Positions 14,261 through 18,100 of a stretch of DNA of 37,887 nt are shown piece by piece. How positions within the stretch are numbered: position 1 is the first letter of the stretch; each line of letters begins with the position of its first letter. The stretch is from Candidatus Shapirobacteria bacterium (GTDB lineage: Bacteria; Patescibacteriota; Microgenomatia; UM-FILTER-40-11): positions 66,414 through 104,300 of the forward strand of contig JAGVBK010000002.1 in NCBI GenBank assembly GCA_020059745.1, given 5' to 3'. Made by a program: the position numbers and the translations under genes. Under the pieces are notes generated by a model. The model had not been told where the DNA came from. It did not search any database and saw only the letters and a program-made list of their open reading frames with translations.

Positions 14261-15310
14261 CTACTTTCTCCTTAAATTAGTTCCACATTTAGGACATTGA
14301 AGCTTAGAGCAAGGAATACCTCTTTGGTGCTCTTCTTCATAGCCACATTTTGGGCAAACGCAAGCTCCCCCAACCCCTTTGCCTTCCGCTTCTTTAATTT
14401 CTCCGGTAAACTTTCCCCTTCTCTGCCAGCCAAACCCCCTGCCCAAAGCAGGACGGTAAAAGCCGGTTTCAACCTCATGGCTTTTAATTTGAATCGAAAC
14501 ATAATTTAAATTTTCAACTTCTTCCATCAGCTTTTTTCTTAGGTTTTCGGAAACTTCAGCTGCTTTCTCAACATTTAAAGAACTTGGCAATTCCACAACT
14601 AAATCTGCTGTAATAATCGAACCCTTTCTCTGGGTCTTTAATGAAGAAAGCTTTATTCCCTCACCGCCTACAACAGACTTTATTTTTGATTCTGTTTCTT
14701 CTCCGGCAGAAATATCAAGAAGTGAGCCGGCTGCTTCTTTGCCTACTGAAAAAGCTTCTCTAACTATATAAATTCCCATTAAAAAAGCTAAAACGCTGTC
14801 TGCGTAAGACCAGAACCTTACTAAAACTAACCCCGCCAAGATTGCCAAGGAAGAATAGACATCAATCCTTGAATGAATTCCGTCTGAAAGCAAACTAAAA
14901 GAATTCTCCTTTTTGCCGTAACTAATTTTTAATCTTGACATTATTTCATTAACTAAAGCTGAAAAAACCATCACTCCGAAGGCAAGGAAGTTGAGGCTAA
15001 TTGTCTCAGGATTTATGAGGCTTTGGTAAGCTTCATAAATAATGCCAATTCCGGCAGAAAGAACAATAACCGTAATAATTACTCCCGCCAAAACTTCAAA
15101 TTTATAGTGGCCGTAGGGATGCTCTTGGTCCGCCGGTTTTCCGGCCAGCCTTATTCCGGCGTAACTTACAATTGAAGAAAAAATATCAACCAAAGAGTCA
15201 AGACCTGAAGCTAAAATTGCGGCAGAATTTGAAAAAAACCCCACCGCTATTTTGCTTCCGGCTAAAAACACATTGGCGACAACTGCGGCAACGGCAACTT
15301 TTTCTTTCAT
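14261..15310 (-). CDS. Cation diffusion facilitator (FieF-like) fused to a C-terminal Cys-rich zinc ribbon
   Basis: A 349-residue protein. Six transmembrane helices (about 5-195) carry the transport site Asp38/Asp42 (TM2, LDSLVD) and His146/Asp150 (TM5, IHSRID). That DxxxD + HxxxD set is the FieF/YiiP type for Zn, Fe or Cd rather than the CzcD type. A cytoplasmic CDF domain follows (about 200-275). Residues about 280-349 are an extra module: an aromatic/Gly-rich stretch (GRGFGWQRRG), then Cys317, 319, 322, 334, 339 and 342 in CVCPKCGY...PCSKLQCPKCG. It is the last gene of the five-gene operon, with ATGA overlap to the ATPase gene. Direction and metal are not proven. Confidence 0.92.
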   Translation of the reverse strand: MKEKVAVAAVVANVFLAGSKIAVGFFSNSAAILASGLDSLVDIFSSIVSYAGIRLAGKPADQEHPYGHYKFEVLAGVIITVIVLSAGIGIIYEAYQSLINPETISLNFLAFGVMVFSALVNEIMSRLKISYGKKENSFSLLSDGIHSRIDVYSSLAILAGLVLVRFWSYADSVLAFLMGIYIVREAFSVGKEAAGSLLDISAGEETESKIKSVVGGEGIKLSSLKTQRKGSIITADLVVELPSSLNVEKAAEVSENLRKKLMEEVENLNYVSIQIKSHEVETGFYRPALGRGFGWQRRGKFTGEIKEAEGKGVGGACVCPKCGYEEEHQRGIPCSKLQCPKCGTNLRRK

Positions 15311-16203
15311 AACCTGTCCACTTCTATTTTATCAATAATTTCGCAAAACAGTTTTTTATAGTTCGGGTTTATTTCCTTTATTGGCTTTTGTTTTATCGTT
15401 GATTCCAAGAAATCCTTTCGATATGGGATTTTTCCGATTATGGGGATTTTCTTCTCCTCTGCAAACACTTCAATTTCCTTCAAAAAGCTCTCAGCCAAAT
15501 CGCATTTATTAATTACAATTCCACGCTCAATCTTAAAGTGTTCTGCTAGATAAAGAACCCTTTTCAAATCAAAAAGCGCCGAAGGCGTCGGCTCTGTAAC
15601 TGCTACAATATAGTCGGTTCCCACTAAAGAAGCGATTACCGGGCAACCCACCCCAGGAGAAGAATCAATCACCATAACTTCTGCTCCCGCTTTTTTATTA
15701 AGCTCATCTGCCCGCTTTCTCACTTCGCTTACAACTTCACCTGAAGCTAGCTCTCCCAGTTTCAGCTCACCTGAAACCAGGTTAACGCCATAATTTTTAC
15801 CACTGTAAATAGTTCCGATTTCCTTTTTGTCGGCAGAAATCGCACCCCAGGGGCAAGCCACCTGGCAGGCCATACAGCCAAGACAGGATTCTTTTACAAA
15901 AGCAGGAAATCTGCCTTTAACAAAAACAATCGCTTCCTGCTTGCAAGCCAGGGCGCACCTTCCGCATTTTACGCATTTGCTGAAATCCCATTTAGGAATG
16001 GCCTGGTAAACATCTGATATTTTTTCCCTCTCAACCGAAAGAAGCAAGTGGTCATTAGGGCACTCGGCATCAGCATCTACCAACATGGTTTTTTTTCTTT
16101 CCGCCAATTCCACCGCCAATGAAGTAGCTACCATAGATTTGCCTACTCCACCCTTGCCGCCGGTAACCGCGATTTTTAAAGTCCTTTTTGTTTCAGTTTT
16201 CAT
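15307..16203 (-). CDS. MinD-superfamily ATPase with inserted 2x[4Fe-4S] ferredoxin domain
   Basis: A 298-residue P-loop ATPase. The deviant Walker A is GGKGGVGKS (15-23). A ferredoxin-like insert (about 70-125) holds two CxxCxxCxxxC motifs: Cys77, 80, 83, 87 and Cys107, 110, 113, 117. The ATPase core resumes with VMVIDSSPGVGCPV and ends with the INKCDL segment. Relatives accompany NifX/ORP-family proteins, for example in the Desulfovibrio orp locus, and are related to Mrp/NBP35 Fe-S carriers. It probably drives cluster or metal transfer or assembly of the complex. The start ATG overlaps the upstream stop as TAATG, and its own stop overlaps the CDF start (ATGA). Confidence 0.93.
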   Translation of the reverse strand: MKTETKRTLKIAVTGGKGGVGKSMVATSLAVELAERKKTMLVDADAECPNDHLLLSVEREKISDVYQAIPKWDFSKCVKCGRCALACKQEAIVFVKGRFPAFVKESCLGCMACQVACPWGAISADKKEIGTIYSGKNYGVNLVSGELKLGELASGEVVSEVRKRADELNKKAGAEVMVIDSSPGVGCPVIASLVGTDYIVAVTEPTPSALFDLKRVLYLAEHFKIERGIVINKCDLAESFLKEIEVFAEEKKIPIIGKIPYRKDFLESTIKQKPIKEINPNYKKLFCEIIDKIEVDRL

Positions 16204-16562
16204 TATTCATGCTCCTTACAGACATTGCCGGCACTTGCTTTCATAGCTTTTTTCTCCTTCCACTGGATAAAAAGCTCATCAACGGTTTCCGCTTTGCCCA
16301 AATAAACCTCAATCCCAAGCTTTTGACATAAATTAAGGGCACTGGGGCCAAGTTCAAGACATAACAAAATATCAGCTCCATGCTTTTTCATTAAATAAGG
16401 AGGAAGATCGGTTCCCCCTAAATGTTGGCTGGAGTTTTCAATTATTTCAAGAACTTTTCCGTCTTCGTTAAGGAAAGTATAAGTTAAACAGCGACCAAAA
16501 TGATCGGCTACTTTGCCTTTAAACCCGTTTTTGTCTAGGGTGGGAATGGCGATTTTTTTCAT
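16203..16562 (-). CDS. NifX/ORP-family metallocluster-binding protein (second copy)
   Basis: A 119-residue protein of the dinitrogenase iron-molybdenum cofactor family: MKKIAIPTLDKNG, KVADHFGRCLTYTFLNEDGKV, and PPYLMKKHGADILLCLELGPSALNLCQKLGIEVYLGKAETVDE. The family fold is an RNase H-like single domain that holds FeMo-co, its precursors, or a Mo-Cu cluster in orange protein. The C-terminus has a free CKEHE that could bind metal. A GTG at 16577 would overlap the previous stop (GTGA), but the family start MKKIAIP favours the ATG at 16562. It sits between a paralogue and the ferredoxin-ATPase. Confidence 0.88.
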   Translation of the reverse strand: MKKIAIPTLDKNGFKGKVADHFGRCLTYTFLNEDGKVLEIIENSSQHLGGTDLPPYLMKKHGADILLCLELGPSALNLCQKLGIEVYLGKAETVDELFIQWKEKKAMKASAGNVCKEHE

Positions 16563-16573
16563 TCTTCGACTAG

Positions 16574-16891
16574 TCACTCTATTACCTCGGAAATCGCTTT
16601 CTTTATTTTTCCCTTCTTAAGAAAAATTTTTACCCTAAACTGCTCAAGCACTCCCTCTGCTCTTGGACCCACTGCTCCGCTAATGACTGCTTCCGCTCCT
16701 TTGTCTACAACGGTCTTTGCCGCGGCAACTCCTGCTCCACCGGCTTGATCAACACTATCGTTTTCAACAACTTCAAACCCTTTAACTTCACCGTTTTCAG
16801 TCGTTACAATTAAAAAATAGGGGCTCCTTCCAAAGACTTCTGATATTTCTCCCTCTAAATCTTTTTCTGCTGAACTTATGGCTATCTTCAC
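16574..16891 (-). CDS. NifX/ORP-family metallocluster-binding protein (first copy)
   Basis: A 105-residue protein: MKIAISSAEKDLEGEISEVFGRSPYFLIV, then the signature AGGAGVAAAKTVVDKGAEAVISGAVGPRAEGVLEQFRVKIF. It is the same single-domain family as the following gene but clearly divergent, so two different subunits are likely. It has no His or Cys, unlike its paralogue, so any cluster would need other ligands or shared binding. Start is a GTG sharing its first G with the upstream TAG stop; GGAGGTGAT inside the end of the upstream gene serves as ribosome binding site. Confidence 0.88.
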   Translation of the reverse strand: MKIAISSAEKDLEGEISEVFGRSPYFLIVTTENGEVKGFEVVENDSVDQAGGAGVAAAKTVVDKGAEAVISGAVGPRAEGVLEQFRVKIFLKKGKIKKAISEVIE

Positions 16892-18045
16892 TACTTATCA
16901 CCTCCAATATCTTTCAATATCTCTTTCTTTATTTCTTCGTTAAACCCGCTGTAGGCTTTATTGTTTAGGAAAATTATCGGATAATAACCAAAGCTTTCGG
17001 AAACTCCCTGGCTCTTTGGGAATTTACTTTTATAGCTTTCAAGGGTCTCGTAAAATTTTTCCTCTGTATCCAGGTGTTGCTCAACCGGAAAGTCAAGAGT
17101 CTTCGCAAATTCAATAAACTCAAGACACATCGGCCCCTTGCCATTATGAAAAACAGTGATACTTTCTTTTGTCTTCAAATCAGGAATCAGCTCAAGCTCT
17201 TCAAGAGGTACCGCCGGTTTGGGTACCACATATTTAACTTCAGTGTTATAGGGAATTTCCGAGTACGGCATTTTTAATTCCTCAGCCCTGCCAACCCATG
17301 AGTCAAAATTCCTCCACTGCACTTTTTCCGAGACTAGCGCAGAAGCATAAGCATCCCACCAGCCTTTCCTTGTGCCACCGATATAGACATGGGAAACAAG
17401 AACTAAATCGCGCGGTTTTTCATTAAAGCTGTCGTCAAGAACCTTCTTAAAATCATCTGCCGTGGAACCTCTCTGGAATAAACTGGCATCACAAAGCGAA
17501 CCCGAACCCATATCTTCAAAAACAAGGTTCGAGACCGAAATAAGTTTGGTTTTATATTCTTCCGGAGAATAAATAGCCGCTTTTATACCCGACCCTCTTG
17601 CCAATATATAAGGAATACCCAAAGCGTCAGCTGCTTTAAGTGTGTTTTCGTCGTAAGCAAAATATTTTGAACTGAAAATCTTAATCGGCTTGCCGGTTAT
17701 TTTCTCTGCATATTCTTTATATTCTTTCATAATTTTATATTGCTCTTCATAAGGCATTTCCCAAAAAGGCGCTTCTCCATAGCCGGTAGCAATTTCATAT
17801 CCTTTATCCGCCAGCTTCTTAAAATAATCAGGGTACTTTTCTAAAACCGACCTTTCCGGCTTGATAATCGCTTTAAGCCCTTTGGCATCAAGCTCTTTCT
17901 CCCACACATAGTAACCGCTAATGTCGCCCGTATTTTCGGACAAAAGAATCACCCCGTTTGTTTTTTTTGTTACCCTTGAAGAATAAAAATATATCCCTAA
18001 AAAAGATAAGAGAAGCACAAATAAAATTAAAAGCCCCTTTTTCAT
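16891..18045 (-). CDS. Membrane-anchored degenerate NodB-like protein with C-terminal thioredoxin-like domain
   Basis: A 384-residue protein, first gene of the operon. Residues about 3-22 form an anchor. Residues about 30-250 resemble a polysaccharide deacetylase (NodB) barrel: KLADKGYEIATGYG, and KYFAYDENTLKAADALGIPYI, which matches the late NodB motif. The catalytic TFDD and HxxxH motifs are missing, so deacetylase activity is unlikely. The last 90 residues (ESITVFHNGKGPMCLEFIEFAKTL onward, with YYPIIFLNNKAYSG) look like a thioredoxin/glutaredoxin fold with one Cys instead of CxxC. The frame extends to a TTG at 18054; the ATG at 18045 is preferred. It probably works outside the membrane as the partner of the CDF transporter. 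Confidence 0.7.
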   Translation of the reverse strand: MKKGLLILFVLLLSFLGIYFYSSRVTKKTNGVILLSENTGDISGYYVWEKELDAKGLKAIIKPERSVLEKYPDYFKKLADKGYEIATGYGEAPFWEMPYEEQYKIMKEYKEYAEKITGKPIKIFSSKYFAYDENTLKAADALGIPYILARGSGIKAAIYSPEEYKTKLISVSNLVFEDMGSGSLCDASLFQRGSTADDFKKVLDDSFNEKPRDLVLVSHVYIGGTRKGWWDAYASALVSEKVQWRNFDSWVGRAEELKMPYSEIPYNTEVKYVVPKPAVPLEELELIPDLKTKESITVFHNGKGPMCLEFIEFAKTLDFPVEQHLDTEEKFYETLESYKSKFPKSQGVSESFGYYPIIFLNNKAYSGFNEEIKKEILKDIGGDK

Positions 18046-18072
18046 CTTAATCAACCATTAGAATATATATTC

Positions 18073-18100
18073 ATAATAGCTCGATGGAAAAAATTGTCAA
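18073..18100 (-). promoter_or_regulatory. Promoter of the five-gene NifX/ferredoxin-ATPase/CDF operon
   Basis: Minus strand TTGACA (18100-18095), 16-nt spacer, TATTAT (18078-18073). It is the only convincing promoter seen for the unit; the leader is about 20 nt. Confidence 0.7.

Follow-up and report, generated by a model that had tools for sequence, protein, structure and literature searches.

In a rare family of bacterial proteins, a barrel of the "NodB" type, a fold that normally serves zinc deacetylases, is associated with two cysteines, one of them invariant within the barrel (Cys188) and the other supplied from the C-terminal side. The most telling single observation is that this second cysteine is kept where the fold surrounding it has been discarded. 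Both folds are known; the arrangement is new. The starting member is encoded in the window, the whole stretch of 37,887 nucleotides analysed here, which lies in an 857-kb Candidatus Shapirobacteria genome of five contigs. That the protein is an extracytoplasmic, anchored two-cysteine protein, in which pocket Cys188 and a mobile cysteine together perform thiol redox or soft-metal chemistry, appears to us only slightly short of an even prospect. The more specific proposal, which we advance tentatively, is that a deacetylase barrel may have been converted into an oxidoreductase or thiolate-metal enzyme that works outside the cytoplasm with two cysteines, the second of them carried on an exchangeable module: a degenerate glutaredoxin in the same chain, an anchored glutaredoxin encoded separately, or a Cys tail left after loss of the domain.

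The window gene, its operon and its family

The main open reading frame spans positions 16891-18054 of the minus strand and encodes 387 residues from a TTG codon, or 384 from the in-frame ATG at 18045. It heads a tight row of five minus-strand genes, neighbouring members of which overlap or abut.

16891..18045, minus strand: main protein (anchor, NodB-like barrel and single-Cys glutaredoxin-like domain), from the ATG start
17974..18045, minus strand: N-terminal membrane anchor, about residues 4-27 (helix 2-27 in the AlphaFold model)
16574..16891, minus strand: NifX/ORP-like protein (PF02579, E 2e-18), abutting the main gene
16203..16577, minus strand: second NifX/ORP-like protein (PF02579, E 9.7e-14)
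15307..16203, minus strand: Mrp/MinD-type ATPase with inserted 4Fe-4S ferredoxin domains (CbiA, ParA and Fer4 matches)
14261..15310, minus strand: CDF-family cation efflux transporter with a Cys-rich C-terminal tail (PF01545, E 8.8e-44; TIGR01297 over cut-off)
18073..18100, minus strand: promoter-like site TTGACA-16-TATTAT, between an upstream ABC-F-like gene and the main gene

A preliminary description had proposed that the gene leads a metal operon. Its leading position is borne out by the gene order and by the promoter-like site at 18100-18073, which agrees with 11 of 12 consensus bases and is a consensus match only, the region having 14 such sites against 9.4 expected by chance. The designation of the upstream gene as ABC-F-like is our own, from motifs, and an Rfam search upstream of the main gene returned no match. 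The metal character of the operon is likewise supported by the two NifX-like proteins, the Mrp-type ATPase with 4Fe-4S domains and the CDF transporter, together with the ArsR-type metalloregulator that occurs in relatives. The neighbouring Mrp and NifX genes likely have an iron-sulfur role because MrpORP, according to the consulted part of PMC6345978, binds and transfers Fe-S clusters. The CDF transporter (14261-15310) ends in a zinc-ribbon-like, Cys-rich tail (CVCPKCG...CPKCG), and relatives (L036, L038, L091, L095, L099, L100 and L102) have, immediately ahead of DUF134 on its upstream side, open reading frames of 50-130 residues that match the CDF query; judged by their size, these small frames probably correspond to the CDF tail.

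The Lys-rich start of the main protein suggests that the N end of the anchor is cytoplasmic. In one relative (L013) the anchor is replaced by a lipobox-like VAMAGC.

The family is rare. Among near relatives it was found in 6 of 137 genomes, and across the phylum and the class in 13 of 379 and 13 of 373, respectively (the own genome being counted in each of these figures); in one other class, 19 of 85 genomes have it. Outside the Patescibacteria, members come from contigs assigned to Syntrophorhabdus, Pseudorhodoplanes and one planctomycete, through either transfer or misbinning; a Planctomycetota-wide search found the family in 1 of 246 genomes, that one being the starting genome. Two members (L010 and L012) share their contigs with genes of syntrophic-bacterium and alphaproteobacterium type, reflecting either horizontal transfer or assembly error. 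Viral contigs searched with alignment A1 gave two stretches that matched a pattern, none encoding a relative, and a tblastn search of a plasmid collection gave no match to the family. Literature searches on the NodB-glutaredoxin pair, on the gene together with DUF134, and on Patescibacteria with CcdA/glutaredoxin turned up no description of this protein.

The barrel and its pocket cysteine

Comparisons among barrels refer to an alignment of 38 sequences, which omits two contig-end fragments (L109 and L096), the distant relative L108 and the separate or lone glutaredoxins, and in which the near-identical L041 and L101 are both counted.

17274..17967, minus strand: NodB-like barrel, about residues 30-260 (Pfam, AlphaFold model, PDB structure search)
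17488..17502, minus strand: invariant GS[LF]CD motif, residues 185-189, with pocket Cys188 (C188 and D189 in 38/38)
17389..17391, minus strand: His222, the sole NodB catalytic His kept (motif 5), in 38/38 barrels
16894..17172, minus strand: glutaredoxin-like domain, residues 295-387, with a single Cys310 in G-P-M-C (model and structure search)

That the N-terminal part is a NodB-like barrel, as first described from the DNA, is confirmed at several levels. PF01522 matches residues 58-149 of the main protein with an E-value of 2.7e-6, above the curated Pfam cut-off, and matches 19 of the 20 members of alignment A2. An AlphaFold model from seven sequences (mean pLDDT 75.9, pTM 0.65) finds its best PDB matches among polysaccharide deacetylases, ArnD and PuuE allantoinase (Foldseek best E 2.5e-8), and a VIA structure search of the barrel reached Z 20.8, with rmsd 2.4-2.7 over 220-229 residues; a sequence-only PDB search gave weak matches only. 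The loop just ahead of Cys188 (residues 181-186) is modelled with pLDDT below 50.

With the NodB motifs defined as in the consulted part of PMC10967932, the alignment also upholds the reported loss of TFDD and HxxxH and retention of the late motif. At motif 1, TFDD is replaced in all 38 barrels by [LM]38-[IST]39-E40, so that the Asp pair is gone and a single acidic residue, E40, is retained throughout; for motif 2, no column among 88-100 has His in more than one of the 38 sequences; and the RPP of motif 3 has become S129-[KR]130-Y131 in nearly all. An active classic deacetylase was rejected as a reading, as the metal ligands are absent in 38/38.

Cys188, absent from the preliminary description, is a second cysteine of the main protein and lies inside the barrel. 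Invariant in the 38 barrels are E40, G47, W98, Y102, Q105, Y131, T138, A142, Y149, R153, G154, Y167, N176, G185, C188, D189, S191, R195, H222, G226, G227, W232 and W247. The comparison of conserved residues among homologues that had been suggested at the outset places 19 of these 23 on the strand-C-terminal, active-site face of the barrel (hypergeometric p 8e-5, the face being our own definition and comprising 101 of 230 residues). The reading as a repurposed binding protein does not follow from these data: the pocket has been remodelled, is strictly conserved and contains an invariant cysteine, and a NodB fold that lacks the metal can be an enzyme, as the consulted part of PMC10967932 describes for PuuE. 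Catalysis is as likely as binding.

Other cysteines recur in the family. Those of columns 75 and 119 occur together in nine of nine sequences and never singly, and look structural, as a disulfide outside the cell; a juxtamembrane cysteine found in 15 sequences is in every case accompanied by the cysteine of an NPC motif after the barrel. As these other recurring cysteines pair off, Cys188 and the C-terminal cysteine are left as the common pair. A distant planctomycete relative (L108, 5351-6265) has D-x-E, one His and F-R-P at the motif places and already has L-C-D-x-S, so that, judging from this one sequence, the pocket cysteine may have arisen before the metal motifs were completely lost. The same relative may represent a wider NodB family that shares the LCD-x-S cysteine motif.

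The second cysteine

The C-terminal end had been described as a thioredoxin fold with one cysteine, and it is more precisely of the glutaredoxin type. Modelled alone from four sequences, the 93 C-terminal residues have pLDDT 93.2 and a β-α-β-α-β-β-α fold. Glutaredoxins are the best Foldseek matches (3ic4, probability 1.00, E 1.4e-3), and VIA places 3ic4 at Z 8.4 over 80 residues; its top rows, Spx (Z 9.2) and MglA (Z 8.9), are likewise thioredoxin-fold proteins. Even for so small a domain such Z values are modest, but glutaredoxin/thioredoxin folds dominate the list. In glutaredoxins, the second active-site cysteine is usually buried and non-nucleophilic. It is at this second position of CxxC that the single cysteine of the present domain sits: G-x-M-C is found in each of the 29 glutaredoxin domains that are joined to a barrel or lie next to one, the fragment L096 included, and neither CxxC nor a CxxS with the first cysteine occurs in any of the 30 domains examined. 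The thirtieth, a lone membrane-anchored glutaredoxin-like domain (L035:5843-6364), has no cysteine left (FHNGIGEKTK). A cytoplasmic Fe-S glutaredoxin was set aside given the membrane anchor or lipobox.

How the domain is provided varies across the family. It is fused to 24 of the 38 barrels, encoded by the adjacent gene for four (L013, L042, L091 and L093) and absent for ten. A frameshift artefact was rejected as the origin of the split genes, which occur at four separate loci and in L013, L042 and L093 give the separate glutaredoxin an N-terminal anchor or lipobox-like start of its own. Among the 11 members without the domain (the ten barrels and the fragment L109), nine have a cysteine as their last or next-to-last residue, the tails ending in MCL, MCL, MCF, MCQ, KCL, MCQ, LCQ, ICQ and LC; such endings are found in 6 of 302 other open reading frames of the same loci. 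The second cysteine thus outlives the glutaredoxin domain. Five of the tail sequences belong to one related set (f28), leaving about five lineages, so that a binomial figure for the tails overstates their independence.

Altogether, 36 of the 38 systems have a second cysteine (24 fused, 4 in the adjacent gene, 8 in a C-terminal tail). L010 and L034 have neither glutaredoxin nor tail cysteine, which indicates either that the second cysteine is not indispensable or that these copies have decayed. In the tree, the glutaredoxin-bearing L107 lies beside L034, and the glutaredoxin-bearing L103 and L104 lie beside the f28 tail clade; from these positions, the glutaredoxin domain was probably lost more than once. 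A search for a separate glutaredoxin of the same kind in the genomes of ten glutaredoxin-less members gave no match in nine, and in the tenth one borderline match (E 0.003) within a 727-residue frame.

How these features might work together can be outlined as follows. A NodB deacetylase barrel would have lost its metal triad and been rebuilt around a conserved pocket with Cys188, and a second, mobile cysteine would be supplied from the C-terminal side by a fused glutaredoxin that kept solely its second active-site cysteine, by an anchored glutaredoxin encoded next door, or by a bare Cys tail. The two cysteines would work as a pair, the mobile thiol reaching the barrel pocket either to resolve a disulfide that arises on Cys188 as a small substrate is turned over or to co-ligate a soft metal there. 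We infer an outside location for the protein, the pairing of its cysteines, their redox or metal chemistry and a source of electrons; the last might be envelope thiol-redox proteins that reset the pair. The gene would be switched on together with metal and iron-sulfur housekeeping genes. Several observations weigh against this scheme: the usual burial of the kept cysteine in glutaredoxins, the two members that have no second cysteine, the low model confidence just ahead of Cys188, the failure to find the relatives' candidate relay protein in the window's own genome, and the 21 loci in which no searched partner is present. If this is true, a NodB family that drops its metal site and installs a conserved cysteine adds thiol chemistry to the repertoire of the fold, and the series of fused, split and tail-only forms illustrates that a resolving cysteine can persist after its original domain is gone. 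The two-cysteine idea is testable with two point mutations and offers a lead on how the Patescibacteria, in which many genes are without assigned function, manage redox or metals in their envelope.

Neighbourhoods, alternatives and known systems

Gene neighbourhoods were compared over 41 loci that encode a complete or partial barrel and differ in length, in a search aimed at redox and metal genes. At least one searched partner is present in 20 loci and none in 21, several of these on short contigs. The partners include DUF134 (12 of 41 loci), an ArsR-type regulator beside the family gene (8), a thioredoxin-membrane protein (8), YibE/F (5), full-length CDF (4), Mrp (4), NifX (3) and thioredoxin reductase (2). 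The loci with a gene for a YibE/F-like membrane protein near the family gene are L037, L039, L088, L100 and L105. The neighbour in L036 is of the ArsR/SmtB type (HTH_metalloreg, 55.7 bits against a cut-off of 55). At the level of whole genomes, 15 of the 19 that have the gene also have DUF134, against 13 of the 66 that lack it (Fisher p 3.7e-6, kinship uncorrected), and for a membrane protein with a glutaredoxin/thioredoxin domain the corresponding figures are 13 of 19 and 22 of 66 (p 0.008, kinship uncorrected); neither these co-occurrence tests nor the neighbourhood counts take account of shared ancestry.

The conserved cysteines in the membrane segments of this membrane neighbour are laid out like those of CcdA/DsbD. 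Against DsbD, hhalign gave a probability of 2% and an E-value of 0.024 in an alignment that pairs the first membrane PC motif, and one member of the neighbour group matched the NCBIfam DsbD model with E 0.6. This candidate relay protein of the relatives was not found in the window's own genome, in which its thioredoxin part alone was matched, in a 190-residue anchored protein with SCPHC. The gene for an anchored SCPHC thioredoxin-like protein in that genome adjoins one for a Cys-rich, anchored FCPYG protein (L127:1357-2883).

The metal-related neighbours bear on an unlikely alternative, that of a soft-metal trap or metallochaperone with a new metal site made up of E40, C188, D189 and H222, to or from which the tail (G-x-M-C or M-C) would hand over Cu(I), Zn, Cd or a metalloid. 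The CDF, NifX and Mrp genes of the window and the ArsR-type regulator adjoining relatives at 55.7 bits (cut-off 55) are consistent with such a role, as are the Met that precedes Cys in five of nine tails and a structural match, one of the weaker ones, between the glutaredoxin part and the copper resistance protein CopG. However, this Met is not strict (AKCL, LLCQ, NICQ, FLC), there is no His cluster, a full-length CDF gene adjoins just 4 of the 41 loci, and Mrp/NifX-type proteins handle intracellular Fe-S clusters, according to the consulted part of PMC6345978, whereas the main protein is predicted to face outward.

A pseudo-deacetylase that binds cell-wall or surface sugars, with the glutaredoxin or Cys tail as a disulfide tether or stabiliser, is distinctly improbable in our judgment. 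It would accommodate the loss of the metal triad in all 38 barrels and the invariance of Trp98, Trp232 and Trp247; structures of the "pseudoenzyme" BA3943 are among the structural matches of the barrel, and inactive CE4 members with envelope roles, BA0330/BA0331, are known from the consulted part of PMC4505593. Yet the invariant cysteine, the kept H222 and the strictly conserved pocket exceed the needs of sugar binding, and the redox and metal neighbours also argue against it, weakly, as the search targeted redox and metal genes.

A metal-independent hydrolase of the PuuE kind, which would act on a small amide or ester through E40, D189 and H222 with merely regulatory cysteines, is very doubtful: PuuE structures (3cl6, 1z7a, 3s6o) are among the closest folds, H222 is kept in 38/38, and PuuE is an enzyme although it has neither Asp of motif 1 and not the second His of motif 2 (consulted part of PMC10967932), but the main protein has no match to TIGR03212 at E 0.1, the profile comparison aligned 106 columns only and did not settle residue equivalence, and the persistent second cysteine is left unexplained. 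As HHalign to PuuE/ArnD left these equivalences unsettled, Trp98 is not equated with the Trp of PuuE.

The two-cysteine reading can be placed beside several known systems. With the CE4/NodB deacetylases (PF01522) the family shares the barrel fold, the order of the motifs and the late His of motif 5, but it is without the Asp pair, HxxxH and RPP and has new invariant Cys, Trp, Gln and Arg positions together with a glutaredoxin or Cys tail. The closest solved folds are PuuE allantoinase and ArnD, which belong to the heterogeneous NodB folds outside classic CE4, and the Mycobacterium smegmatis and Helicobacter pylori HP0310 deacetylases, at Z about 19-21; by profile (TIGR03212) the main protein falls outside the PuuE family, and its C-terminal thiol module is a feature of which the consulted parts of the sources make no mention for PuuE or ArnD. 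The C-terminal domain has the same fold as glutaredoxin and methanoredoxin (3ic4, 5cax), but the first cysteine of CxxC is replaced by Gly in G-x-M-C, the domain is fused to or encoded beside a NodB barrel, and it is probably extracellular. In MsrA, high-Mr thioredoxin reductase and mercuric reductase, a cysteine at the extreme C terminus serves a buried active site; the folds differ from those described here, where the tail cysteine alternates with a whole glutaredoxin domain and the function is a proposed one. Finally, operons of the MrpORP/ORP type share the neighbouring NifX-like and Mrp-type ATPase genes, whereas here these are separate small genes, accompanied by a CDF pump and led by the NodB-glutaredoxin gene.
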